Shown: positions 3,292 through 19,115 of the stretch, in pieces
How the letters are laid out: every line of letters begins with the position of its first letter
Numbering within the stretch: position 1 is the first letter of the stretch
Virus record (IMG/VR): IMGVR_UViG_3300036715_001810
Coordinates: 1 to 25,253 of that record
Reading direction: 5' to 3' (one strand)
Length of the DNA: 25,253 bases
DNA from: a virus
Made by a program: the position numbers and the translations under genes
Notes under the pieces: generated by a model
Databases searched by the model: none
The model's input: only the letters and a program-made list of their open reading frames with translations
What the model was told of the DNA's origin: nothing

Positions 3292-4479
3292 ATGTTTTTA
3301 AAAAAAAGAAGACGTGGTAGTAAACCAATTGTTTATGGTGTGATTGGAAATGGTCAATCGTTATCAGTTGGTGATCGTGCAGGATCACCATTATATTCAC
3401 CTTATTTTACAGGACCAGTTGCTGGTAGTTACATGTTAACAGATATAGCAAATGGCTTCACGAGTCCAGTATCAGATTGGATATTAACTGATATTCAGGA
3501 GCCTATGCGTGGGTCTGGTTATGGATCCATTTATCCTTTCAATGTTAGTTATCAAAGTCCACACACACCAATGGCTCAGTATCTTAACTTAAGTTTTGGT
3601 ATAAATTCCGCTCATACATGCGCTGGTGAGAGTGGACAACCATACTCTGTAATTAAAAAAGGTGGAACTGGTAACTCTTATGCATCTTCTATTGCTGAAG
3701 TTCAAAGGTTTAAAAATTTATTTGATGCTTTAGGTATGAAGTATGAAGTTCTTTGTGTGATTTGGACTCATGGTGAAAGTGATTATGGTGATACAAGTTA
3801 TAGTAATTATTTGATTGAAGTTCAAAATGATTACGAGACAGATATAAAAGCGATTACTGGTCAAACAAAAAGTGTACCATTAGTAATCACACAACCATCT
3901 GCAGGATTTCCAGTACCAGCTGGTGAATTTACAAATATACCAGATGAAATGTTAGAAGCTTATTTGGCGCATCCAGATAAGATTATTTTAGCTGGCTCTA
4001 AAACAGGTTTAGATTATGTTCCTGGTGATTATCATTTAAGTGCAGTAGGTACAACATTTCTTGGTTTTATGTATGCTATGTCTGTAAGACATTTGATTAC
4101 AAGTGCTGCTACATTTACACCATTATACGCAACAAATGTTTCTTTAAATAGTTCTGGTGATAACCCTATAATTACTGTTACATTTAATAGAAATGTTGTT
4201 GAAGATGATTCTTTGTATTCTGGTATGCATACAGTAGAACATACAAGTTGGTTAAATGGAAAAGGATTTGAAGTAATAGATTCTGGCAATTCTGAATTAA
4301 GTATATTATCCACTGTTATATCTGGTAGTACGGCTACAATAACAGTAGATACGGGTACTCCATATCGAGTAAGCTATGCTTTATATGGAGATGGAAGTGG
4401 AACAATTCGAAGAGGTTGCATTAGAGATGATGATCCAGATAATTATAATTGGCTTTGTCAATTTAGTCATTACTTCTAA
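3292..4479 (+). CDS. SGNH/sialate O-acetylesterase-like hydrolase (tail-associated)
   Basis: This 395-aa protein probably removes ester (acetyl) groups from host surface polysaccharide. SGNH-family signatures are visible in order: block I GNGQS with candidate nucleophile Ser23; WTHGESD at 158-164, corresponding to the W-x-QGE-x-D motif of the sialate O-acetylesterase-like (DUF303/SASA) group; and a terminal DYH at 246-248 with candidate catalytic Asp246/His248. About 120 C-terminal residues form a separate beta-rich domain, possibly Ig-like. The N-terminus has a basic stretch (KKRRR) and no fibre attachment domain, so how it joins the virion is unclear. AGGG at about 3285 supports ATG 3292. 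It is coupled to the lectin-like fibre gene. The fold is fairly secure; the substrate is inferred. Confidence 0.68.
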   Translation: MFLKKRRRGSKPIVYGVIGNGQSLSVGDRAGSPLYSPYFTGPVAGSYMLTDIANGFTSPVSDWILTDIQEPMRGSGYGSIYPFNVSYQSPHTPMAQYLNLSFGINSAHTCAGESGQPYSVIKKGGTGNSYASSIAEVQRFKNLFDALGMKYEVLCVIWTHGESDYGDTSYSNYLIEVQNDYETDIKAITGQTKSVPLVITQPSAGFPVPAGEFTNIPDEMLEAYLAHPDKIILAGSKTGLDYVPGDYHLSAVGTTFLGFMYAMSVRHLITSAATFTPLYATNVSLNSSGDNPIITVTFNRNVVEDDSLYSGMHTVEHTSWLNGKGFEVIDSGNSELSILSTVISGSTATITVDTGTPYRVSYALYGDGSGTIRRGCIRDDDPDNYNWLCQFSHYF

Positions 4480-4884: not shown

Positions 4885-7800
4885 ATGACAAATTACCCTA
4901 ATAGTTTAGATAATGACGTAACACTACCATCTGTAATTGATAATATTACAGAAAATGGTGCTGATGCTATTAACGCATTGAAATATGCTGTATTGGCTAT
5001 GCAACAAGAGTTGGGTATAAAACCAGCTGGTGTGTTATCAAGTTTAGTTGAAAGATTAAATGTTTCATTTAATTCAGATGGAACATTAAAATCTTCTACA
5101 TTAAATTCTTTAGGTGTAGCTACTTTACCAATTTATAATAATGAAGTTGCTGCTAGTGCAGGTATCTTAGAGTCTAAATTAGATTTAGATTATCCAACAG
5201 CACAATTACAAAATGATATTACATTGGTAAAATCACAAGCCGATAATTCAACGAGCTGGATATTTACCACTGGATCTAAATTACAACCACATATTTCTGG
5301 TAGTAATTATTATCATACATTGTCACATATTTTAGTTTCAAATTTAACATCAGATTATTTTAAAAACAAATTTGGTGTAAATAGAAATAATACAAATTCT
5401 TTTGAAGTTTTAAAAGATTTAAATGCTGATTTTGTAGATCATCAACAAAGTGATGGCACAGGTACATCAAGCGCTGTACTTACAAAGTCAGGAACTTCAT
5501 TTCCTTCTTCTTATGCTCATTTTGCGGGTGGTATTTTTATGGATACCACAAGGTTTGGGTATATTCCACAAACAAATAAATCTTTACAATCTGTTGTAGA
5601 GTTTTTGGATAATTCCTCAGTTTTCTTATATGGAACTCGTGTACAAAATCTTTATTCAAATGGTATTTCAAGGATATCAAGATCCGCTGATATTACAAGA
5701 GATGGGTATGGAAGTTCCATAGTATCTGATGTAAGAGCGACAACATTTTTACGTAATACTGGTGCAGCTTCTTATCCAGTAGATGATATTGAATTTGGTG
5801 ATGACATTATTCAACTCACACCATCTGGGGCAATATTAACAAGCCATCAATTTGACCATCAATTTTCTTTAATAAAACCTGGTGATATTATCAAGGTTAA
5901 TTATGGTGGTATTGAGCTGGATTTTCTTATTAAAGAAAAGAAATATTTACAATCTGGTGGCAATAAAACATTTATTGTTAGAATACATGGTAAAAACTTA
6001 AAGTATACAACATCGGCATCTGTCACAATATCAAAGCCACTTGTTAATGATAATAAGTTTGGCGCATTATCTGTATCTTCTGTTGAAAATGATTTTTCTT
6101 TTAAACCAAGTTTGATTGCAGCATCACCAAGAAGTGCAATGGTATGTGGTATTGGTTTTAATTCAAATTTAATTACAAATACAAATTATAATCTTTATTT
6201 AGCATTTTATCCAACAGGTAATCCATCAGATGGTTATGTTACTTTACCAGCTATTGATGTTACTGGTGATTTAGGTGTTTCTGCAGGTAAATATACTTTA
6301 GACTCTATTGTTTCATCTACAAATGAATCTTTTAGACAAAATGGATACAATCTAAGATTCCAAGCTTATTCTTATAAAGGTGAATTTGGTATTACAATGA
6401 CAGATCCAATAGGAAACTCTTCGTTTTCTATTATTTCTGGTATCATTGATTCAAATGGTTTTTATGATCAAATAGCTTCTGAGTTTACATATCCAAATAA
6501 TGTTATTGGTTTATTTAATTCAGGGTCTATTTTAGCAAAAGATGGTTTGGGTTTTGGACCTTCCAAAGGTAACTTTGCAAGTCCATTGCCCTTAACAACA
6601 TATGGATCTCCAGAGCAAGCTTATTTACCAACAAAGATATTTGCCCCATTAACTAGAAATAATTTTTATGTTAATGCAATAGAGTTAGATCGTTTATCAA
6701 AAGATGTAGACCAACTTAATGATGAGTATGGTGATGGTTATTGGCGCGCAGAATTGATCGGTAGAAATGTAATACCTGGAGTACGTGTTGGTGTTACTTA
6801 TCGTGTATACCAAGATTTATCTACATCTAAATTGGAACCAGGTAAAACAATCACGGTACAATCTGCTGGTTTTGGTACAATTATAGACTTTGGTAGATTT
6901 ATTATATCTAATGTTGATTATACAAATTGCAATACACTTGGTTACAGTGATATTACATTGTATGATGCAATTCATGCAAATGGATCATCACCAGCTGTTT
7001 CTTTAGGTTCCACTGGATTTGGCTCAGGTAATGAAAAATATGTAAGACTTTATTTTGGTGATGATTCTATTGGATTTAATTCAGAGAATTCTGCTGACAA
7101 TTCTGTTGTTGGTCCATTCAAAAGATTCTTTGAAGTTTATGTTGATCAATTTGGAAAAACATTTACTCATGAAAAAGCAAGAATGTATCTTGGTGCAGGC
7201 TCTCTTTCTGTAAATGGTAGTTCATTGGCTGGAAATGCTTACGCTTCATTTGGAGATATTACTTATGTATCTCCAAAATTCAAAGGTTTTACATCAGGTC
7301 AAATTAAGAAAATAAAATTAAATGTAAGTTTAAATACAACAACTGGTGTTGTACAAGGTTATTTAAGTTTAAATGCATATCCTGATTTATCTCACAATGG
7401 TCCAACTTCAATTGGTAGAATTGGTGAGAAAATAAGATTTTATGATGAATCAAATCTTGATTATATTGAGATTATATTTAAAAATGATCAAGTATACTCT
7501 ACATTTTCTTTACAAAATATTGATATCCAAATTTTTAGCAGTTTAGCAAATGATCAAGATATCATGCAAATTGCAACTTGTCAGTTAAATGATTCAACAA
7601 ATAAAGTTGAGCATTTAACTGACCAAAGAGAATTTGGTAATACAAGTGAAAAAGATTTAACAACATCAGCATTAGATTACATTGGTTCAACAGGTAAACA
7701 CACAAATATAAATGGTGTGTTAAAGGGATTTGAATTACAATCCAGCGCCTCTAATCCATATCAAGGTCAAATATTATTTAAAGGCGGTAGTGCATTAGTT

Positions 7801-10797
7801 AATGGTAAGATCGTACAAAAAGATACAGATTTTGTATCAATACCATTGGTTAAAGAAGTTGGTTTAATTGTACCACTAGATATTAAATGGGCAATTTGCA
7901 TCAATGATAAAGCTGACTTTGTTGTTTATCCATTATTGGAAGGTGCATCAGGTACAGAACGTGTAATGCACGTAATCAATCTTTTAACATCTCAAAATTA
8001 TGATTTAACAGCATATCTTTTTAAAGATTTAGTTGATAGAAAAGATTTGTGTGTATTGTATACTGTTTTATCAAATATAACAATACCTTCAAACTCACAA
8101 AGCCTTGTAATCAAAGATGCTCGTAGATTTGCTTATAATTCAGATACATCTGGTTTCGCAAAATATGGTGATAAAGAATTTGGTAATTATAGAAGTGCCG
8201 CCTCTCTTTTAGAGTGGATGGCTTTAAAACCAGAACTAACAACAGCACAACTTGGTGGCTGTACTTATGAAACAATTACAAGTGATGTAACTATTGGTGG
8301 ACATGCTACCTTAAAAGAAGTTGATGGTCAAAATAATTCGTTTATTCGAATGGTTGCGCCAGCATTTTATAGCTCACCAAATTTACATATAAAGAATAAT
8401 ATCATTTTAAAGAATGTTTCTTTATCATTAGAGGAAGCAACTGTTGTTTGTGCGGATGCATTAACAAATGTAACATTTGAAAATTGTACAATTACTGTAG
8501 GTACACCATCCACAAGTAAATATGGTTTATATGATACAATCTTCAATCTAACAAATGCAAATAATATTAGATTTATCAATAATACATTTGATATTTACTT
8601 TATAGATTCTGGATCTGGAAGTGATAATGGTGCTGCCTTTAAATTCACTAACTGCTCAAATGTTTTATTTAAAGGTAATACAGTTAATGTAACTTATAAT
8701 ACATCAGATACAGGTAATGTATTTGAAGGTGTGTCAAGTTCAGTGAAATTTGAAGACAATATAATTACCACAAATTCAAAGTGTGCAGTTAAACATGTAA
8801 ACACAAATATTGACATGTTTAATAATACTTTAAATGTAAGTTACAATCCATTTATTGCTGGTGACGGTTATTACTCACAAAGCAATTTTATTAATCATAA
8901 AATTGGTTATGTAAAAGGATATTGTTCAGTGCCAGTAGATTATGTACGTGTGAATAATAATAAGTTTGTTTATACAAATACATCTGGTTCTTATTTAGAT
9001 CGTAACTCTTATTTTGTATATGAGTTAGGTGCAGCAGGATCTTCTGTTAATAATTTTGAAGCAAATGATAATACATTTATAAACACAAATGCATTGTCTA
9101 GCAATACAGTATCTGAATTTGATGTAAGAGGTTTAATTGCAGTTGTTAACTCTTATTTTACATCAGTGCTTAATGAGGGTAATCTAAATACAGATAAACC
9201 AACAATCAAACACCTATCAATATCTAATAACTACTCTGATCAGTATGGTACAATACTTGTTAGTAGTGCATCTAAATTAACAGATAATAATGTTGAATAT
9301 ATACCAAATCCAGGATTATCTGTTTCAGGTGAAATATCAAACAATAAGTGTGGAAATATTGGATATTGGGTTGCTTCAAAGAATATAAATAATTCAAAGA
9401 AATCACAATTAAAAATATTTGGTAATATTTGTAAAATGATCGCTTCTATGAATCATAAAGGCTACATCTACAAACCAATGGCATTAAAATCAAATGGAAC
9501 CATTGAAACATTGATGGTTAATCATTATACAGGTCAAGTATCTATTGAAGATAATACAACATCTTGGATTGTTGGTGGACAAGCATTAGGTAATTCTTTT
9601 AATATCATTTCTGGTAATGAGTTATTTGCATACAACAATTCTTATAGAGTAAAATTCAATAATACAGATGGTTACTATCATATTGGATCTTTGACTGGAG
9701 ACAATGTAGCTATTTACAATATTGGTACAACAGATCTAACTGATTCAAAAAATATCAATTGTGTAATCAAAGACAATAAGTTAAACAAAGGCGAGATTGT
9801 AGACGCTTTAGGTGCTGTTACTTCCACATATGTTTATGAGTACTCAGGTATTTGTACAAATGTTAGTTGTGACATATATGGTAATACAATTGACTTTGTA
9901 AACAATCAAGATTTTAACGGTACAATGGATGCTAGAATTGTAGTATCAGCGTTGAATTTTAATATTCATCATAACACAATACTTAATACAAGACCAAATG
10001 GTAGCAGTACTAATTATTATATGCTAATTACTGGGTATGCGAACAAATATGTTACAAATCCATATGGATTTATTGTTGACAATATATTTGAAAATCCAAA
10101 ATATAATAACGCCACTGATGATGGTGCTTTTAGTTCAACCATTGTTGGTCGCATTAATGTTAATTTTTTTGATTATGAAGATATTGATAGGGTATTTGAT
10201 CAAGTAACTGCAGAAAGAAATAAAAATCAATCTAAACAAAAATTGATTCAATTATCTGGTAACTCTTATGGTGACAACAATGGCTCCGAAAAATATGGTG
10301 TTTCTATTAATGGTTCACCAAATAAAGTAACTGTAGAAACTGGTTCATACAAAGATATTGTTAATTCATTTGGTGATACATATTTTGGATATTATGCAAG
10401 CAAGATATCTTTAGAAGAGGCATTACCAACAAATGTTAAACCAACAAGTATATCTGGGTCTTTATTAAAAGGCGCTGGTAATGTTAATGATATTATATAT
10501 GTTAATTATAGGGTGGAACAAGTGATTAATACAATTGATTCACCACAAACACTTTCTACATTTTTAACAGATGTAACACCACCTACATTTACACCACTTA
10601 CTGAATCAGTGACATTATCTTTGTCAAATCCAGATACAGGTGTATTATTAAATCAAACGCAGTCATTATTAGCATATAACTTTAGAACAAATAAAAATAA
10701 AGAATTAAGACTTACTTTAAGTGGTGGTTTTGTTCAAAATGGCGCGAATGGTATTACTTTAGAAGTATCTGCTGCAGTTTTAATATATCGTTGGTAA
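4885..10797 (+). CDS. Giant tail fibre/spike with parallel beta-helix region
   Basis: This 1970-aa structural protein is probably a baseplate-attached receptor-binding fibre or spike. The N-terminus (YPNSLDNDVTLPSVIDN, ADAINALKYAV, SLGVATLPI, ILESKLDLDY, up to about residue 110) and SSYAHFAGGIF at about 207-217 resemble a conserved head module of fibres in large myoviruses. Residues about 920-1090 form a beta-rich module. From about 1120 to 1820 there are many short Asn-rich strands of the kind NxxFxxN (for example NNIRFINNTF, SNVLFKGNTV), the signature of a right-handed parallel beta-helix. The last about 150 residues form a separate beta-rich cap ending in AAVLIYRW. Only a weak AGG (4874-4876) precedes ATG 4885. 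No enzymatic motif was seen, so depolymerase activity is possible but unsupported. Confidence 0.72.
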   Translation: MTNYPNSLDNDVTLPSVIDNITENGADAINALKYAVLAMQQELGIKPAGVLSSLVERLNVSFNSDGTLKSSTLNSLGVATLPIYNNEVAASAGILESKLDLDYPTAQLQNDITLVKSQADNSTSWIFTTGSKLQPHISGSNYYHTLSHILVSNLTSDYFKNKFGVNRNNTNSFEVLKDLNADFVDHQQSDGTGTSSAVLTKSGTSFPSSYAHFAGGIFMDTTRFGYIPQTNKSLQSVVEFLDNSSVFLYGTRVQNLYSNGISRISRSADITRDGYGSSIVSDVRATTFLRNTGAASYPVDDIEFGDDIIQLTPSGAILTSHQFDHQFSLIKPGDIIKVNYGGIELDFLIKEKKYLQSGGNKTFIVRIHGKNLKYTTSASVTISKPLVNDNKFGALSVSSVENDFSFKPSLIAASPRSAMVCGIGFNSNLITNTNYNLYLAFYPTGNPSDGYVTLPAIDVTGDLGVSAGKYTLDSIVSSTNESFRQNGYNLRFQAYSYKGEFGITMTDPIGNSSFSIISGIIDSNGFYDQIASEFTYPNNVIGLFNSGSILAKDGLGFGPSKGNFASPLPLTTYGSPEQAYLPTKIFAPLTRNNFYVNAIELDRLSKDVDQLNDEYGDGYWRAELIGRNVIPGVRVGVTYRVYQDLSTSKLEPGKTITVQSAGFGTIIDFGRFIISNVDYTNCNTLGYSDITLYDAIHANGSSPAVSLGSTGFGSGNEKYVRLYFGDDSIGFNSENSADNSVVGPFKRFFEVYVDQFGKTFTHEKARMYLGAGSLSVNGSSLAGNAYASFGDITYVSPKFKGFTSGQIKKIKLNVSLNTTTGVVQGYLSLNAYPDLSHNGPTSIGRIGEKIRFYDESNLDYIEIIFKNDQVYSTFSLQNIDIQIFSSLANDQDIMQIATCQLNDSTNKVEHLTDQREFGNTSEKDLTTSALDYIGSTGKHTNINGVLKGFELQSSASNPYQGQILFKGGSALVNGKIVQKDTDFVSIPLVKEVGLIVPLDIKWAICINDKADFVVYPLLEGASGTERVMHVINLLTSQNYDLTAYLFKDLVDRKDLCVLYTVLSNITIPSNSQSLVIKDARRFAYNSDTSGFAKYGDKEFGNYRSAASLLEWMALKPELTTAQLGGCTYETITSDVTIGGHATLKEVDGQNNSFIRMVAPAFYSSPNLHIKNNIILKNVSLSLEEATVVCADALTNVTFENCTITVGTPSTSKYGLYDTIFNLTNANNIRFINNTFDIYFIDSGSGSDNGAAFKFTNCSNVLFKGNTVNVTYNTSDTGNVFEGVSSSVKFEDNIITTNSKCAVKHVNTNIDMFNNTLNVSYNPFIAGDGYYSQSNFINHKIGYVKGYCSVPVDYVRVNNNKFVYTNTSGSYLDRNSYFVYELGAAGSSVNNFEANDNTFINTNALSSNTVSEFDVRGLIAVVNSYFTSVLNEGNLNTDKPTIKHLSISNNYSDQYGTILVSSASKLTDNNVEYIPNPGLSVSGEISNNKCGNIGYWVASKNINNSKKSQLKIFGNICKMIASMNHKGYIYKPMALKSNGTIETLMVNHYTGQVSIEDNTTSWIVGGQALGNSFNIISGNELFAYNNSYRVKFNNTDGYYHIGSLTGDNVAIYNIGTTDLTDSKNINCVIKDNKLNKGEIVDALGAVTSTYVYEYSGICTNVSCDIYGNTIDFVNNQDFNGTMDARIVVSALNFNIHHNTILNTRPNGSSTNYYMLITGYANKYVTNPYGFIVDNIFENPKYNNATDDGAFSSTIVGRINVNFFDYEDIDRVFDQVTAERNKNQSKQKLIQLSGNSYGDNNGSEKYGVSINGSPNKVTVETGSYKDIVNSFGDTYFGYYASKISLEEALPTNVKPTSISGSLLKGAGNVNDIIYVNYRVEQVINTIDSPQTLSTFLTDVTPPTFTPLTESVTLSLSNPDTGVLLNQTQSLLAYNFRTNKNKELRLTLSGGFVQNGANGITLEVSAAVLIYRW

Positions 10798-11658: not shown

Positions 11659-14415
11659 ATGCCAATTCCTGGAGCTACAAATTTACTACCTGGTGCGTAC
11701 TCTGACGTTGTAACAGACACTCAAGGTGTTTCTGTTTCTGTTAGTGGACGTGTTGCCGCGCTTATTGGCGAGGGCTCAACGGATGAAGTACTAGTCTCTG
11801 CTGCTCTTGGTGGTGGCAAAGATGGTTTAAACTCATCATATACATCCAATCAAAACTCTGATAGCCGACACTTTCAGCTATCTCTTGCACCACTTGTTGA
11901 AAACAGAACAAAATTGTTTAAAAATGGCGTGCCACTTTCCATACTTGAGTCTACAATTGATTCTAATCCATTTAGTTCAAGATATGATGCACGTGTTGAT
12001 CCAGAAACTGGTCGTATTGAATTACAAACAGCTTCTTTGGTTGATCAAGGTGGCTCAAATTATACAAAATTAACAACAAATATTGGCGTGGGTTCTTTAT
12101 CAGGCTTAGCTTTACTTAATGTAAATGCTACAACTGAAACTTGGACAATCCGCTGTGTGTCTGTACAACGTGATTCTGGTGGGCTACCTATTGCAAAGAC
12201 TGCAAGATTTTTAGCATTCGGATCTGTATCTGGAACAAAACTTGATGCAAATGGTAATCCAATCATCTGGGTTTCTGATGGTTATACCTCATCAAATAGT
12301 GTACTTAGCTTTGCAATTGTAGAAGATGTTAGCGCTGCCACACCATTCCGCGATGGTGATGCATTTGTTATCAAAGTTAAATCAGGTGCTCTTAGTAGAG
12401 GGGATTCATTATCTTCAAATTATATTGGAGTATCTACACTTAATGATCCAGTTTACCTACAAGGCTTAACACAAGTTGTTGCTCGTCATGGTTCTATTAC
12501 AACAGACAATACATTATCTCTTGCAGCACAATTGGCATTCGCTAATCAAGCACCAGGAGTATTAACAGTACAAGCTGCACCTGCAATGCCAAGACGCGTA
12601 TCTTATGATTTGGTTGATTCTTTTAACGCAACATCTACAAATATTGATGACTTTTTATTTGCATTACCTTATGGTGTTATTCCAAGTTTAAATTCATCTA
12701 TCCATTTCTTTGAAACCAATTTAGCTACAGGTATAGAATCACAAGTATTACCAAATAAATATGATTATTATCAATTGGGTGAAGTTGGTAAACCAAGTAT
12801 ATCAACATTTACACAAAGTTCAACTTCAGTTTCTAGTGGTGGATACTCTTATTCATATACAGTCATTGAACAAGCGGCTGCTCTTACTTATGGTTTAGAT
12901 GGTTATGTTGCCAGAGTGTTGCCAGCTTTAAATAAAGGTGTGTTTTCAACAGCATCATTAACTTTTGATGCAAGTTATGTTGGAAAAACATTAAAAGTAA
13001 TTGATGGAACAAATGTCGCAAATAACGGTTCTTTTGTGGTTGATTCTGTATCAAATGGTAAGTTGTATTTCACAGTTTCTTCCTTTGCAGATTTTACAAG
13101 TGGATCTGGTGTAACATTTGCGGCAATAGATCCAGCAACTGGATTGGTAATGGCTTCTAGTTCAGGTACAGATGGTGTTTTAACAGCTTCTGTTGGTACA
13201 GGTACAGCCACACTTTCCAGCGCCGCAGTTGCTTTTAATACTGCATTAACTACACCAACAAATTATCGTTTAAGAATCTCTGGATCTGCAACAAATAATG
13301 GTTTGTATGATATTACATCTTACAACTCAGGAACAGATACATTAACAATTTCAAAAGCAGTTGTTATTGAGTCTAACCTTCGTTATGAAGTTCTTGATTC
13401 TAATAATGTTAGTTCTTATGTTGTTGTTAATAAAAATGTTGTACCTACTGGACATTCATTGCGTGTAACAATCATTGATGATCGTGATGCAGCATTCTAC
13501 GATCCAGGTTGGGTAAATGCCTTAGAATCTCTTGAGGCTGTTGAGTGTGACATTGTAACAGCATTTCCAAAGCAAACAATTTCCGCTGTATTTCAAAATG
13601 TAGTTTCTCACTGCAAAGCAATGAGTTCAATTGATAACAGAAAAGAAAGAGTTGCAATCATTGGTGCAATCAATGGTTTAACTCCAGATAATCTCACAGG
13701 TGTGAAAGCAGCTGCTGTAGAAGATCTCGGTGTATTAGAAGGTATCCAAGGCGATTCTGTAACAGAAGTATTGTCTGGTAACATTGAAGATTTAACAGAT
13801 TACTCTGTGCCGGCGGCTTATGGTAACACATACCGTGTTATTTACATGGCTCCCGATCAAATTGTAGTTAATGTGGGTGGACAAAACACTGTATTGGATG
13901 GTTTTTATCAAGCGGGTGCTTTAGCGGGTTATTACTCGGCACAAACAGCAATTGCAACACCAGCAACCAATAAGCCACTTAGTGGCTATACAATTCCACG
14001 TAGCCGTAGATATTCAACTTCAACATTAAAAGCTTTAACATCAGCTGGTGTATTTGTATGTCAACCAGTAGCTGGTGGTGGTACTGTTAAGTGGGGTCTT
14101 ACAACAACACAATCTGGCTTTATTGAAGAAAGAGAAGCGAGCATTGTATTTATTAGAGATAATATCGCTAAAACACTCCGTGCATCTTATGATGATTTTG
14201 TTGGTCAACCAGATTTGAATGATATCCAAGCTTCTATGCAAGCAAGATTGATTTCTGTATTGAGTTCTATGCAACCATCTAAAATCACACAATACAAAAA
14301 CCCTGTGGTAAGGCGTGACCCAACTGATCCAACCACATGGTTGGTATCTGTAAAAGTAATGCCAGTCTATGGTGTTAATTTCGTTTACATTCAAGTTGCA
14401 GTTGGACAAATTTGA
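11659..14415 (+). CDS. Contractile tail sheath protein
   Basis: This 918-aa protein polymerises around the tail tube and contracts at infection. The N-terminus (GATNLLPGAYSDV) has the usual PGVY-like opening of sheath proteins, and the C-terminal about 300 residues contain the conserved sheath core: IPRSRRYSTSTLKALTSAGV, VKWGLTTTQ, FIRDNIAKTLRASYDDFVGQPD, ending in a VYGVNFVYIQVAVG-like strand. At 918 aa it is much longer than T4 gp18 (659 aa). The excess lies in the middle (about residues 370-590) and includes two similar beta-rich units (427-476 and 515-566), probably a surface-exposed insertion. ATAAGGA at 11644-11650 is a good Shine-Dalgarno site for ATG 11659. The tube gene follows 13 nt downstream. 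Confidence 0.92.
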   Translation: MPIPGATNLLPGAYSDVVTDTQGVSVSVSGRVAALIGEGSTDEVLVSAALGGGKDGLNSSYTSNQNSDSRHFQLSLAPLVENRTKLFKNGVPLSILESTIDSNPFSSRYDARVDPETGRIELQTASLVDQGGSNYTKLTTNIGVGSLSGLALLNVNATTETWTIRCVSVQRDSGGLPIAKTARFLAFGSVSGTKLDANGNPIIWVSDGYTSSNSVLSFAIVEDVSAATPFRDGDAFVIKVKSGALSRGDSLSSNYIGVSTLNDPVYLQGLTQVVARHGSITTDNTLSLAAQLAFANQAPGVLTVQAAPAMPRRVSYDLVDSFNATSTNIDDFLFALPYGVIPSLNSSIHFFETNLATGIESQVLPNKYDYYQLGEVGKPSISTFTQSSTSVSSGGYSYSYTVIEQAAALTYGLDGYVARVLPALNKGVFSTASLTFDASYVGKTLKVIDGTNVANNGSFVVDSVSNGKLYFTVSSFADFTSGSGVTFAAIDPATGLVMASSSGTDGVLTASVGTGTATLSSAAVAFNTALTTPTNYRLRISGSATNNGLYDITSYNSGTDTLTISKAVVIESNLRYEVLDSNNVSSYVVVNKNVVPTGHSLRVTIIDDRDAAFYDPGWVNALESLEAVECDIVTAFPKQTISAVFQNVVSHCKAMSSIDNRKERVAIIGAINGLTPDNLTGVKAAAVEDLGVLEGIQGDSVTEVLSGNIEDLTDYSVPAAYGNTYRVIYMAPDQIVVNVGGQNTVLDGFYQAGALAGYYSAQTAIATPATNKPLSGYTIPRSRRYSTSTLKALTSAGVFVCQPVAGGGTVKWGLTTTQSGFIEEREASIVFIRDNIAKTLRASYDDFVGQPDLNDIQASMQARLISVLSSMQPSKITQYKNPVVRRDPTDPTTWLVSVKVMPVYGVNFVYIQVAVGQI

Positions 14416-14428
14416 TAAAAGGTGATTT

Positions 14429-15070
14429 ATGGCGGTAGAACCCAGAAACAGAAATACAAACTCAACTTTAAGTTCAGGAAATAACAATACAACATCAGTA
14501 GACCTTTCAACAAATATTATCATTAAAGTTGGTAATGTTCGTGTAGGCGCAATCAAAACAATCTCTGTTAGTGAAACAAGAGAAATTGCAATGATTACAG
14601 AACTTGGTCATGACGGAGTGATAGATTCTGTTCCAAAAAGTCATACAATGATTTCGGGTCGTATAACCCGTATACGTTTTGACAAGCTACGTTTATTCGA
14701 AGCTTTTGGACGCGGATTCGTTCATTTGAAAGCTCAAAGATATCCATTTGATATCGAGATTATTGACCGTAATGAAAATGATGACTCAAATAAAATCATT
14801 ACAACTGTTAAGAACGTTTGGTTTAGCTCACTAAATTATACACTTTCAGATAGTGACTGGATTATTGCTGAGGATTCTGATTATAAAGCTGAAACAATTT
14901 TCTCTACCAAAAATGGTGGAAACGTTGCTACAGGTGGAAAGATCAATGTACCTTATTACACAAATATTGTTGAAAGAGTTGTTGACTCTGGCGATATTCG
15001 CGGCTCCATGTCAGCAGGTGATTTAATCAACTTGCTTACAAACGGGGAAAGCGCGGGCACAATATTTTGA
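14429..15070 (+). CDS. Tail tube protein
   Basis: This 213-aa protein is the expected inner tube subunit. It lies immediately after the sheath gene, in the size range of tube proteins (T4 gp19 is 163 aa). The core is beta-rich (NIIIKVGNVRVGAIKTISVSET; SHTMISGRITRIRFD; DNNK-type loops then VWFSSLNYTLSDSDWIIAEDSDYKAE), matching the strand pattern and the typical region near the SLNYTLSxxDWxIxEDxxYKAE motif of contractile tube proteins. The first about 25 residues are polar and low in complexity (Asn/Thr/Ser-rich). AAAAGGTGA (14418-14426) gives a good ribosome-binding site before ATG 14429. A strong hairpin terminator follows 23 nt after the stop, so sheath and tube probably share a transcript end. 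Confidence 0.88.
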   Translation: MAVEPRNRNTNSTLSSGNNNTTSVDLSTNIIIKVGNVRVGAIKTISVSETREIAMITELGHDGVIDSVPKSHTMISGRITRIRFDKLRLFEAFGRGFVHLKAQRYPFDIEIIDRNENDDSNKIITTVKNVWFSSLNYTLSDSDWIIAEDSDYKAETIFSTKNGGNVATGGKINVPYYTNIVERVVDSGDIRGSMSAGDLINLLTNGESAGTIF

Positions 15071-15093
15071 TTTAAGTTTTATATGATTTTATC

Positions 15094-15131
15094 AAGGAGC
15101 AGATATATTATATCTGCTCCTTGTTATTTAT
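15094..15131 (+). terminator. Rho-independent terminator after the tube gene
   Basis: AAGGAGCAGATAT (15094-15106) pairs perfectly with ATATCTGCTCCTT (15110-15122): 13 base pairs around a 3-nt loop (a 12-bp stem with a 5-nt loop is more likely sterically). A T-rich but interrupted tail follows (TTGTTATTTAT, 15121-15131). It lies in the only sizeable gap after the sheath-tube pair. The imperfect T-tract means read-through is likely, which would suit graded expression of the chaperone and tape measure genes downstream. Confidence 0.75.
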
Positions 15132-15149
15132 AGGAATAATATGTATAAT
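15121..15149 (+). promoter_or_regulatory. Candidate promoter just after the terminator
   Basis: TTGTTA (15121-15126), 17 nt, then a perfect TATAAT (15144-15149). A transcript from here would begin inside the small 62-codon gene and carry the chaperone gene. The -35 overlaps the terminator stem. This could restart transcription after termination, but the match is easily coincidental in AT-rich sequence. Confidence 0.22.
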
Positions 15150-15329
15150 GATGATAACGATGTAATTGTGATTAGCGATTTATACGATGAATATAAGGGC
15201 ATTTCTAATGAAGATCATTTTAAATATGAATTAACTTTAGAAAATATTGTCGTAGAAACAAAAATAAGTAACGATGATAAAATAAAAGAATTAGTTATTA
15301 TTAATGTAATAAAGGAAAATATTTTATGA
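15141..15329 (+). CDS. Small acidic protein, unknown function
   Basis: This is a 62-aa, very acidic protein (MYNDDNDVIVISDLYDEY at the start) without recognised motifs, membrane segments or cysteines. AGGA (15132-15135) gives a modest ribosome-binding site. Its TGA stop overlaps the ATG of the chaperone gene (ATGA at 15326-15329), which suggests translational coupling. Its position between the tube terminator and the tail-assembly chaperone suggests an accessory tail-assembly role, but that is only inferred from position. It is probably a real gene, because it has a start signal and fills the gap with the usual coupled overlap. Confidence 0.6.
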   Translation: MYNDDNDVIVISDLYDEYKGISNEDHFKYELTLENIVVETKISNDDKIKELVIINVIKENIL

Positions 15330-15841
15330 AAGAATATGTTGTTGAAGATGCAAGTTTTGAGAGTGTAGTAAAAGATGCTAAAGAAAACAAGTCAAAAGGT
15401 ATTTACAAAATAGATCAAGATGCCAAAAAAAGAATAGAAGTTTTACTTGGCTTATATAAAGAAGAAAAATATGTTGTTTTTAATAATATAACTTATACAT
15501 TACAAACACTTTCTTTAAAAGAAACGAAAGAAATATTTAGCCATATGGGCAAGTTGGGTCCAATAACAAACCTTGTATATGACTCTGAGTTTCAGAAATT
15601 AACTTTAGCACGTGGTATTAAAGAAATAGAAGGTATTAATTTCTCCAATTATATTGGTGTTGAAGAATATCCAGCCGATGTGCAGGTTTCTTTTAAAGAA
15701 CAAGTAATTAATGATATGGATGTTTCGGTTATTTCCCATTTAATGAAAGAATGGGCTGTTTTCTCAAAAGAACATGATGAAAAATATACCATTAAAAACG
15801 AAGAGACTTTACAGGAAGTAGTTGAAGATATAAAAAAATAG
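15326..15841 (+). CDS. Tail assembly chaperone, short (gpG-like) product
   Basis: This 171-aa, soluble, mostly helical, charged protein lies between the tube and the tape measure genes. That slot holds the tail-assembly chaperone (lambda gpG/gpGT; XkdN and T4 gp57-type roles), which keeps the tape measure soluble and recruits tube subunits. Typical features are an N-terminal YVVEDAS then a strand-turn region (YVVFNNITYTLQTLSLKETKEI), and a C-terminal helical part. AAAGGA (15311-15316) supports ATG 15326. The reading frame ends ATA AAA AAA TAG TAA: a slippery A AAA AAA followed by two stops, so part of the ribosomes would shift -1 and make the longer product. No sequence-family match was checked. 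Confidence 0.75.
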   Translation: MKEYVVEDASFESVVKDAKENKSKGIYKIDQDAKKRIEVLLGLYKEEKYVVFNNITYTLQTLSLKETKEIFSHMGKLGPITNLVYDSEFQKLTLARGIKEIEGINFSNYIGVEEYPADVQVSFKEQVINDMDVSVISHLMKEWAVFSKEHDEKYTIKNEETLQEVVEDIKK

Positions 15842-15876
15842 TAAAGGAGCCAGAATACAGATTTATCTGGTTCCTT
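15832..15876 (+). promoter_or_regulatory. Programmed -1 ribosomal frameshift signal
   Basis: The slippery heptamer A AAA AAA (15832-15838) is in the correct phase of the chaperone gene (ATA AAA AAA). It is followed by tandem zero-frame stops TAG TAA (15839-15844). After a 5-nt spacer comes a stem: AAGGAGCCAGA (15844-15854) with TCTGGTTCCTT (15866-15876), 11 pairs including one G-U, with an 11-nt loop. An AGGA lies 16 nt upstream (15813-15816), somewhat far for the Shine-Dalgarno-like stimulator known from dnaX. No convincing pseudoknot partner for the loop was seen. All elements of a bacterial/phage -1 frameshift site are present. Confidence 0.85.
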
Positions 15877-16179
15877 GAACAAAAGTACAATTGTGATGCA
15901 AGTGATCCTAAAATAAAAGATATGGATCCAATAAAAAAAGCTTGGATATTTCATAATTGGATTGAAGATAAAAACGAACAAATTGAATTAACCAAAAATC
16001 AAATATATTTAATGGCATCATTCGTGAATCCAGAGGCTGTTAAAAAACTATTGAATAATGATGGTGTTCATACATCTGATGATAAAGACTTTGAAGAATC
16101 TTTAAGAATGGTTAGAGAATCTGATCCAGAAACTCCACCTCAAGAAGTAAAGAAAAAACGTAGACGACCAAAGGTTTAA
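15838..16179 (+). CDS. Tail assembly chaperone, frameshift extension (gpT-like part)
   Basis: This is the -1 reading frame, open from the slip site with no stop until TAA at 16177-16179. Joined to the preceding 171 residues it gives a 284-aa fusion. The extension (113 residues) begins IVKEPEYRFIWFLEQKY, contains a helical segment (PIKKAWIFHNWIEDKNEQ) and ends in a basic tail (KKKRRRPKV). It has an internal ATG at 15922, but no ribosome-binding site precedes it, and the 28 codons before it are open and protein-like, so expression by frameshifting is much more likely than separate initiation. In lambda the T extension binds the tube protein; the same role is inferred. The tape measure gene starts 3 nt after its stop. 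Confidence 0.82.
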   Translation: MVKEPEYRFIWFLEQKYNCDASDPKIKDMDPIKKAWIFHNWIEDKNEQIELTKNQIYLMASFVNPEAVKKLLNNDGVHTSDDKDFEESLRMVRESDPETPPQEVKKKRRRPKV

Positions 16180-16182
16180 TGG

Positions 16183-18207
16183 ATGGCTGATAATAACATT
16201 AATCAAGCAGTTGCTGAAACAGATGCACTTACAAAATCCCAAACTGAAGCGGCTGGTACAAGCCAAACATTAGGTAATGTTTTGGTTTCTACTGGTTTGC
16301 AAGCAGCTGGATTCGCAGATACATTGAAAGATGCATCTGGAAAAACCAGATCTTTTCATGAAGATTTAACTTCAATTACATCTGGTTTTTCTAACTTATC
16401 AAAAGTAATACCATATGTTGGTAATGATTTATCCAAAGTATTTAAAGCGTTGGGTGATAATCCATTTTTCCAAGGAGTTGCAAAATCTGTTGATACTACA
16501 AATGCATTATCATTATCTTTTATTAATGCTGCGGCTGCATCTGGTAAATTTAATGAACAACTTAAAGCATCTTCTGCGGATAAAGATGGTTTTAATTTTG
16601 CAGATGTTAATGATTCTTTATATCAATATCAATCTATTATTGGTGCTGTAGCTTCTCGAACAGGTGTGTCACGTAAAGAAACCGATAAACAAGCAGAGAG
16701 TTTATCACAATTATCTGGTGGATTAACAAACGTAAATTCTTTACTAAGTATAAATGGTCAAAATTATACTGCATTAGAAGCAAGTATAAAATTAGCTTAT
16801 TCTACTGGATTAAGTTTTGCTGAAGTAACATCTACTTTAAGTGATAGATTATCTAAAGTTTCAAGCTCAAAATTTCAATTACAAACAGATGAAGAGTCTA
16901 TAAATAAAGCATTAAGATATGTTTCTGTATTGGGTGATTTAAGTAAAACAACACAAATACCAATAAAAGATTTACGCTCCGCTATGGATGGGATATCTAC
17001 TTCATTTAGTATGATGGGAGATGTATCTGGTAGTTCAGCGAAAATTGTTGCCGATAACTTTGATCGTATGAGAGAAGCTGGTTTAACATCTGCCCAATCT
17101 ATTTCTATGATTCAAAATGTTACGAATAGCATTTCTAGTTTAAATGTAGCGCAAAGAGCATTCCTATCAAGTCAAACGGGTGGTCCAGGTGGATTACGTG
17201 GAGCATTTGAAATTCAAAAACTTATCAAAGAAGATAAGCTTGATGAAGTTTATGGGAAATTAGAACAATCTTTGAAAAAGCAATTTGGAAAAATTGTTTC
17301 ATTTGAAGAAGCAACCAAAAGTGAATCAGCGGCAGCACAATATCAAAAGCAATTAACAACATTGCGATCAGGACCATTTGATGGTTTGGCAAAAAGTGAA
17401 GGTGAAGCAGAACGCTTATTAGATGCTTTAAGCAAAGGTAAAGGCGGTGCATCCAATTTCGGTGGATCATTGAATAAAGAATTTGATATTGGTTCTCAAA
17501 TTTCCAGTTCATTAAAAACAACAGTTTCTCAATTGAAAAATACAATTGAAAATGAATCTGTTTTATCAGCATTAGATACTTCAAAATCCGTAAGAGGATC
17601 TATGACTTCATCTTACGGTGATGAGAGCTTTAAAATGGCTCAAGGTGAAATTGATCGAAAAAATCTTGATTTGAGTTTAAATGCACAATCAAAAACACGT
17701 GGTGATTTAGTTTCTACAAATAGAAACGCACTTGTTACAGAGGGTACGTTAATCGGATCTGCTGCGAAAGATTTTGAAACAAAGTTTGCTACAGAAATAT
17801 TAAAACCAACAAACGAAACTATAGCTAATTTAACATCTAAATTACATGACGCAACAAAAGCTGAGGCATCTGCTTTAAAAGAATCAATTGAAAAATTAAA
17901 AGAAGAAAAAAATGAATTTATAAAAACAATTTCTAGTTTTCCAAATTTTTCAGAATTAATATCAAACAAATTATTCAAGTCTGTTGACAAAAATGAAATA
18001 ACATCTGCTACAGAATCAAATATATCTAATATGACAAAAGAAAAGGGACCAAGTATAGACCAAATAGGTGAGGAAGCTCAAAAAATACAAACACAAGCTT
18101 CAACACAAAAAATAACTGTAGAAGTTCAACAAGTTTGTACAGATTGTGGAAAAAGACATTCTGACGGTCATGTTAAATCCGTCTACAATCCAACAGTGGG
18201 AGGTTGA
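16183..18207 (+). CDS. Tape measure protein
   Basis: This 674-aa protein fills the tail lumen and sets its length. It follows the chaperone genes and precedes baseplate genes, as is usual for tape measures. The sequence is Ser/Ala/Gln/Lys-rich and mostly helical, with a predicted coiled coil at about 553-585 (KLHDATKAEASALKESIEKL). Using the established ratio of about 0.15 nm per residue, the tail would be near 100 nm. The extreme C-terminus (652-663) is CTDCGKRHSDGH, a possible zinc-binding CxxC-H-H arrangement that is not a usual tape measure feature. AAAGG at 16170-16174 supports ATG 16183. A different coiled-coil tail protein cannot be excluded, but the position is decisive. Confidence 0.8.
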   Translation: MADNNINQAVAETDALTKSQTEAAGTSQTLGNVLVSTGLQAAGFADTLKDASGKTRSFHEDLTSITSGFSNLSKVIPYVGNDLSKVFKALGDNPFFQGVAKSVDTTNALSLSFINAAAASGKFNEQLKASSADKDGFNFADVNDSLYQYQSIIGAVASRTGVSRKETDKQAESLSQLSGGLTNVNSLLSINGQNYTALEASIKLAYSTGLSFAEVTSTLSDRLSKVSSSKFQLQTDEESINKALRYVSVLGDLSKTTQIPIKDLRSAMDGISTSFSMMGDVSGSSAKIVADNFDRMREAGLTSAQSISMIQNVTNSISSLNVAQRAFLSSQTGGPGGLRGAFEIQKLIKEDKLDEVYGKLEQSLKKQFGKIVSFEEATKSESAAAQYQKQLTTLRSGPFDGLAKSEGEAERLLDALSKGKGGASNFGGSLNKEFDIGSQISSSLKTTVSQLKNTIENESVLSALDTSKSVRGSMTSSYGDESFKMAQGEIDRKNLDLSLNAQSKTRGDLVSTNRNALVTEGTLIGSAAKDFETKFATEILKPTNETIANLTSKLHDATKAEASALKESIEKLKEEKNEFIKTISSFPNFSELISNKLFKSVDKNEITSATESNISNMTKEKGPSIDQIGEEAQKIQTQASTQKITVEVQQVCTDCGKRHSDGHVKSVYNPTVGG

Positions 18208-18209
18208 AC

Positions 18210-19115
18210 ATGCCATCTTTAAAAGAATTAATTAAATCAGCAGACACAGATTCATCTCAAGTTGTCACAAAAGTTGATCAACCTTTATCAAGTGTTGGTG
18301 GATTGCCATATGCATCTGTAGTAAATGAAAGACCCATCTACAGTGTGAATGATAGAAAAGTTATACATATTTTCCTACCACAAATGGGTGTGTTTAAATT
18401 TTTCATAAATCCAAAGCAAATCAATTATGGGTACTCAAAGATAACCAAATCTGTTCAAACAAAAGGCGGATTCTCTAATCAATATTGGGGGGAGTCTTTA
18501 CCAACTTTAAAGATACAAGGAACAACAGGGTCTTCTGGTATTGAAGGTATTAATGCTCTTTATGAGGCTTATAGAAGCGAGCAATATGCATTTGACCCAT
18601 CTGGCTTACTTTTGTCTGAACAAGCGTTTAAAGCGCCATTAGAGATCGCTGCAAAGAACATTATCGACTCCTCATTGAATGTAGCAAACTCAATTGCATC
18701 TGGAGGTAATGCTGGTCAATCAATTGGATCTTTATTCTCAGACGCATTATTACCAAACAACAGTACAATTTATCCAGATCCACCAACATTAGCTCAACTT
18801 GCTTTTTCTGTTGAAATTTATTATTCAGGTTGTGTGTACCGAGGTTGGTTTGAAGACTTTAGTCATACCGAAGATGCAGATAATTTTTTGCATAATTATA
18901 ACATAAGCTTTAAAGTCACCCAAAAAAGAGGGTATAGATTGAATTATTTGCCATGGCACAAAAGCCCCATTGGCGCGCCACATGATTCCCCTTATTCATT
19001 TGAAGATGATCGCAGTTATACAACCACACAACCAACAATAAATTATACAACCTTACCAACTACTGGTGTTAAAAGACAAGTTACACAACTTCAAAGAAAT
19101 GTTACAGGAAGATAA
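18210..19115 (+). CDS. Baseplate protein, tube-proximal (XkdP / Mu gp43-position-like)
   Basis: This is a 301-aa protein, taken from ATG 18210 rather than the upstream TTG at 18204 because GGGAGG (18198-18203) sits at ideal 6-nt spacing from the ATG. Recognisable elements: FKFFINPKQINYGYSKITK at about residues 60-80, QYWGESLPTLKIQGTTGSSGI at about 93-115 (split motifs of strand-rich baseplate proteins), and a second strand-rich half (VEIYYSGCVYRGWFEDFSH). It lies between tape measure and hub, the place of proteins that link the tape measure and tube to the hub in Mu-like and PBSX-like tails. A peptidoglycan-binding (LysM) domain is not evident. Its TAA stop overlaps the next ATG by one base. 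Confidence 0.5.
   Translation: MPSLKELIKSADTDSSQVVTKVDQPLSSVGGLPYASVVNERPIYSVNDRKVIHIFLPQMGVFKFFINPKQINYGYSKITKSVQTKGGFSNQYWGESLPTLKIQGTTGSSGIEGINALYEAYRSEQYAFDPSGLLLSEQAFKAPLEIAAKNIIDSSLNVANSIASGGNAGQSIGSLFSDALLPNNSTIYPDPPTLAQLAFSVEIYYSGCVYRGWFEDFSHTEDADNFLHNYNISFKVTQKRGYRLNYLPWHKSPIGAPHDSPYSFEDDRSYTTTQPTINYTTLPTTGVKRQVTQLQRNVTGR

Follow-up and report, generated by a model that had tools for sequence, protein, structure and literature searches.

Bacteriophage lambda makes a short tail assembly chaperone, gpG, and a -1-extended one, gpGT, from a locus upstream of the tape measure gene, and its ribosomes slip on G GGA AAG. A comparable three-part bacterial signal is known from Escherichia coli dnaX, an otherwise unrelated gene, in which an upstream Shine-Dalgarno (SD) element, an A-rich heptamer (A AAA AAG) and a downstream stem-loop act together; there the shift yields a short, not an extended, product. 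The nearest annotated system to the locus described here is that of Bacillus phage G (JN638751), a phage of about 500 kb; its gp181 and gp182 lie directly upstream of the tape measure gene and are annotated as one tail assembly chaperone whose two frames are joined by a frameshift. We found no literature statement on frameshifting in the chaperones of jumbo phages, and the evidence from phage G is its annotation. In the description given for lambda, the short form sits on the tape measure and tube subunits are brought in by the long form (PMC5009743). Reporters carrying tail assembly chaperone junctions shift at 6-7%, and a cassette with A_AAA_AAA at 10% (PMC3711429).

The window, that is the whole stretch of DNA analysed, is a virus record of 25,253 bases, and its features are collected in Table 1. 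A tail sheath gene, a tube-like gene, a 171-aa chaperone gene, its -1 extension and a gene for a 674-aa protein in the tape-measure position follow one another in this order. The first half of the chaperone is homologous to phage G gp181 (hhalign probability 96.9, E 1.3e-10) and the -1 extension to the C part of gp182 (profile E 2e-16). Both junctions are of the -1 type, A AAA AAC then TAG in phage G and A AAA AAA then TAG in the window; phage G differs in that gp182 has 367 aa with a longer C part, and in that its downstream sequence is unlike that of the window. To lambda, a siphophage, no sequence homology was detected, and the virus of the window is a myophage. We take the junction, with a probability of about 95%, to be a programmed -1 frameshift that would give a short and a long tail assembly chaperone.

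Table 1. Positions of the features in the window.
Feature	Position	Strand	Description and basis
Tail sheath protein	11659..14415	+	tblastn to annotated tail sheath proteins
Tail tube-like protein	14429..15070	+	Position and weak PHROG matches to virion structural proteins
Chaperone gene, 0-frame	15326..15841	+	171 aa, gpG-like (TAC-N); ORF, fold, homology to phage G gp181, position
Weak SD-like AGGAAG	15813..15818	+	13 nt before the heptamer, at the place where most relatives have AGGAGG
Slippery heptamer A AAA AAA	15832..15838	+	In phase with the 171-codon gene; same in 105/105 distinct homologous junctions
-1-frame extension, T-like domain	15838..16179	+	113 aa, predicted to be reached by frameshift only; phrog_25000, homology to phage G gp182
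Tandem 0-frame stops TAG TAA	15839..15844	+	TAA at 15842-15844
Stem, 5' arm	15844..15854	+	11 bp; RNA folding
Stem, 3' arm	15866..15876	+	RNA folding; 11-nt loop at 15855-15865
674-aa protein, tape-measure position	16183..18207	+	Position; same order as in phage G and Okubovirus records annotated tape measure

Judged by its predicted structure, the first product is a gpG-like protein whose fold resembles phage tail assembly chaperones. Its AlphaFold2 model (pLDDT 85) is matched by Foldseek to the tail assembly chaperone of Rhodococcus phage Finch (E 9e-6), to phage G gp181/gp182 (E in the 1e-5 range) and weakly to GT of N15 (probability 0.96, E 0.2), and the -1 extension matches phrog_25000 "tail assembly chaperone" in an alignment that starts at its first residue. 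Fold and sequence searches of the PDB gave no match to the chaperone, and neither did blastn and tblastn of its halves in phage records; homology to named phages surfaced with profiles only. A scan of genome contigs for the C part gave none that was confirmed, and therefore no host is suggested. The gpG/gpGT arrangement proposed by the first-pass annotation thus holds on all points that sequence can address, namely gene order, homology to phage G, fold and the A7 junctions.

Other features of the neighbourhood were also recorded. In the gap between tail tube and chaperone (15095-15125) the sequence CAAGGAGCAGATATATTATATCTGCTCCTTG makes a long hairpin with a T-rich stretch after it; a similar one is present in the nearest relative (L002), and a terminator is annotated at the corresponding place in the Okubovirus record Adastra. 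A 62-aa ORF at 15141-15329 has a weak match to phrog_15617, and its stop overlaps the ATG of the chaperone gene (ATGA); it is present in L002 and is not listed as an ORF in locus L005. The called TTG start at 18204-18212 is probably wrong, since an ATG at 18210 would give MPSLKEL, and L002 keeps ATGCCATCTTTAAAA. Further away, a protein of 1970 aa (4885-10797) contains numerous short Asn-rich repeats and may be a beta-helix tail protein, and one of 395 aa (3292-4479) matches the tail fiber protein family phrog_4201 with E 7e-37.

The 171-codon gene ends ...GAA GAT ATA AAA AAA TAG TAA AG..., its last codons being ATA (15830-15832), AAA (15833-15835), AAA (15836-15838) and TAG (15839-15841), and the A run at the junction is exactly seven long. 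The in-phase heptamer, the tandem stops, the 5-nt spacer and the 11-bp stem lie to the base where they had first been placed, and the A of TAA at 15844 is indeed both the last base of the tandem stop and the first of the stem. The heptamer by itself proves little, because in-phase heptamers of the form XXXYYYZ occur by the dozen within the AT-rich window. The -1 frame is free of stops from 15826 to 16176 and closes at 16177-16179, so that ORF reading bears out the earlier prediction of a 284-aa fusion (171 + 113); when the same bases were shuffled 20,000 times, 112 open codons never resulted.

Relatives of the locus, on contigs as long as 480 kb, were gathered by a sheath-protein profile, a DNA motif and C-part profiles, and all gathered loci were scanned with the C-part profile, which gave 105 distinct junctions. 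The relatives, about a hundred in number, are uncultured and many of them lie on very large contigs. A7 is exact and at the same place in all 105 junctions, which come from viral contigs; this count and the other conservation statistics are over related sequences. A stop (TAA or TAG) follows A7 directly in 98 of the junctions, and TCR or CCA in the other 7. The tandem stop, described at first as a tidy detail, is present in the window but is not conserved: a second stop is found in fewer than half of the junctions and follows from the way in which the -1 frame begins, with conserved codons, and we therefore treat it as incidental. Homology in the -1 frame among the relatives begins at the first codon. 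L002 differs from the window in 72 of 854 bases, and the longest run in which the two are identical, 79 nt (15806-15884), spans the SD-like element, the heptamer and the stem. Codon changes between the two in the C part are 11 synonymous vs 2 nonsynonymous, and both halves of the chaperone are under purifying selection.

Across the family an internal SD-like element lies 13 nt upstream of the heptamer, and its codon usage indicates that it is selected. GGAGG ends at exactly this distance in 55 of 104 loci, and at codon -8 the glutamate codon is GAG in 82 of 89 cases (92%) vs 32% elsewhere in the same genes; glutamate at codon -5 is almost never encoded by GAG. The spacing at which SD elements stimulate -1 shifts is 9-14 nt (PMC5009743). 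The element of the window is degenerate, CAGGAAGT, with -5.1 kcal/mol vs a family mean of -9.9. The first-pass annotation had called the signal of the window complete; its heptamer and stem stand, but this upstream element, conserved in the family and weak in the window, had been overlooked.

RNA folding recovers the predicted 11-bp stem in the window with -16.5 kcal/mol (z -5.5) after a spacer of 5 nt, a stem-loop a few nucleotides after the heptamer as in signals of the dnaX type. None of 200 dinucleotide shuffles was as stable, and almost no synonymous recoding that keeps the -1-frame protein has a stem as strong (z -3.1, p 0.007). The downstream regions of the family are also stabler on average than their synonymous recodings (mean z -1.1, Wilcoxon p 3e-10), and in about one third of the loci, the window among them, the hairpin goes strongly beyond this synonymous null. 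The stem of the window is one of two alternative registers that share a common 5' arm. In register A, that of the window, the 3' arm lies at +28 to +38 after A7 with an 11-nt loop, and in register B at +21 to +29 with a 6-nt loop; each is 7-8 SD stronger than the synonymous null, in statistics that are not corrected for kinship. The full 11-bp stem is common only to the window and its nearest relative, so that the stem-loop noted at first is real in the window but not family-wide. Covariation in related phages, which had been proposed as a check, is absent across the family for the window's own stem because most relatives use the other register. For register B the pairing of positions 8-14 with 21-27 after A7 does covary, at a level reached in 0 of 500 shuffles, which ignore kinship, and slid registers score much lower. 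Hairpins are stronger in the 14 loci whose SD is weak (mean z -2.2 vs -0.95, p 0.019); a trade-off between SD strength and hairpin strength is not claimed, because independent pairs on a tree give it no support. A search of 15000-16300 against Rfam gave nothing above the gathering score.

In the mechanism that we propose, most ribosomes would read ATA AAA AAA and terminate at TAG, and the short chaperone of 171 aa would result. In a minority the stem-loop 5 nt downstream would cause a pause, aided, weakly in the window, by pairing of the SD-like element with 16S rRNA; in these ribosomes the two lysyl-tRNAs could re-pair one base back on A7, and ATA GTA AAG... would then be read into the 113-codon -1 frame to give the 284-aa long chaperone. 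The shift would be translational and, we infer, would take place at a frequency of a few percent; as in lambda, the short form may coat the tape measure and the long form may bring in subunits of the tail tube, and both this role in tail assembly and the product ratio are put forward as proposals. Against the frameshift reading we count that in E. coli A_AAA_AAA is a weaker site than A_AAA_AAG (PMC5009743), that the SD of the window is degenerate, and that its 11-bp stem is found again only in the nearest relative and has no covariation in the family.

The sole serious rival is transcriptional slippage on A7, in which RNA polymerase drops one A and normal translation gives the fusion. The run is a homopolymer, the resulting protein would be almost identical in sequence, and poly-A runs are so used in some IS elements; selection against such slippage is, however, usually seen from 9 A (PMC1088944). 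The run of the family is fixed at 7 in every relative and does not vary in length, the well-spaced SD-like element selected upstream would have no role in transcription, and phage G manages with the six A of A AAA AAC. For these reasons we judge transcriptional slippage unlikely.

Less probable still is that the -1 frame is a gene of its own, an 85-aa protein from the ATG at 15922, and the heptamer incidental. The output of the ORF caller is exactly this, and similar loci are so annotated in several public records; that the halves are easily taken for unrelated ORFs, as had been anticipated, is true of Eggerthella phage LE2-3 and Bacillus phage SP8. The ATG at 15922, however, is the first start codon of the extension, is preceded by 28 conserved codons in the same frame and has no SD just upstream; the position of the first start varies among relatives, 98 of 104 loci lack any start within 10 codons of the junction, and A7 is invariant. 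Homopolymer runs also attract indel errors, and an error of sequencing or assembly, or an indel that has cut a gene in decay in two, would yield the same two frames. This we regard as the most improbable of the explanations, as the same junction recurs in 105 distinct loci from many metagenomes and, in analogous form, in the isolated phage G, with both halves kept by purifying selection. Independent starts and sequencing errors are both very unlikely because the A7 junction and the -1 frame are conserved and starts near the junction are mostly absent.

Two further groups of phages bear on how this junction is built. In Eggerthella phage LE2-3 the genes LE23_86 and LE23_87, annotated as two genes, follow sheath and tube as in the window, and their junction has A AAA AAA then TAA, an SD-like GAGGTGG upstream and a strong hairpin 5 nt downstream; the C part differs in having no detectable homology. 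At L008 9509-9874 the "hypothetical protein" LE23_87 resembles a -1 extension of LE23_86, and the hairpin is very stable. The chaperones of SPO1-like phages (Herelleviridae), such as Bacillus phages Adastra and SP8, have a homologous T-like domain (profile E 1e-11 to 7e-5) and the same gene order, but their second frame lies in +1 relative to the first and is joined further upstream, with no A7. CCTTTCG is common to the junction in all 5 SPO1-like loci examined, and in L274, L275, L277 and L278, where it lies near locus position 1460, it would let a +1 slip on TTT C connect the two frames. The record of Adastra calls the product a "+1 frameshift product", and it is the one record that annotates it so. 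Since the SPO1-like C domain stands in the +1 frame, homologous chaperones appear not all to shift in the same direction.

It may be, at roughly even odds, that one chaperone family kept its protein junction and rebuilt the decoding signal around it: the jumbo-phage clade would have a -1 shift on A7 driven by an SD or by a hairpin with two registers, phage G would use A AAA AAC, and the SPO1-like phages would shift by +1. If so, what selection acts on would be the ratio of the products, whatever mechanism brings it about. The 105 junctions with an invariant A7 form a comparative set in which the contributions of SD and stem-loop to -1 frameshifting vary naturally, and they tell annotators of large uncultured phages that two ORFs, readily passed over as unrelated genes, should be joined. 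The frameshift mechanism itself is textbook, and an annotated homologue already exists in phage G; what is added to these known systems is the comparative set and the overlooked SD element.
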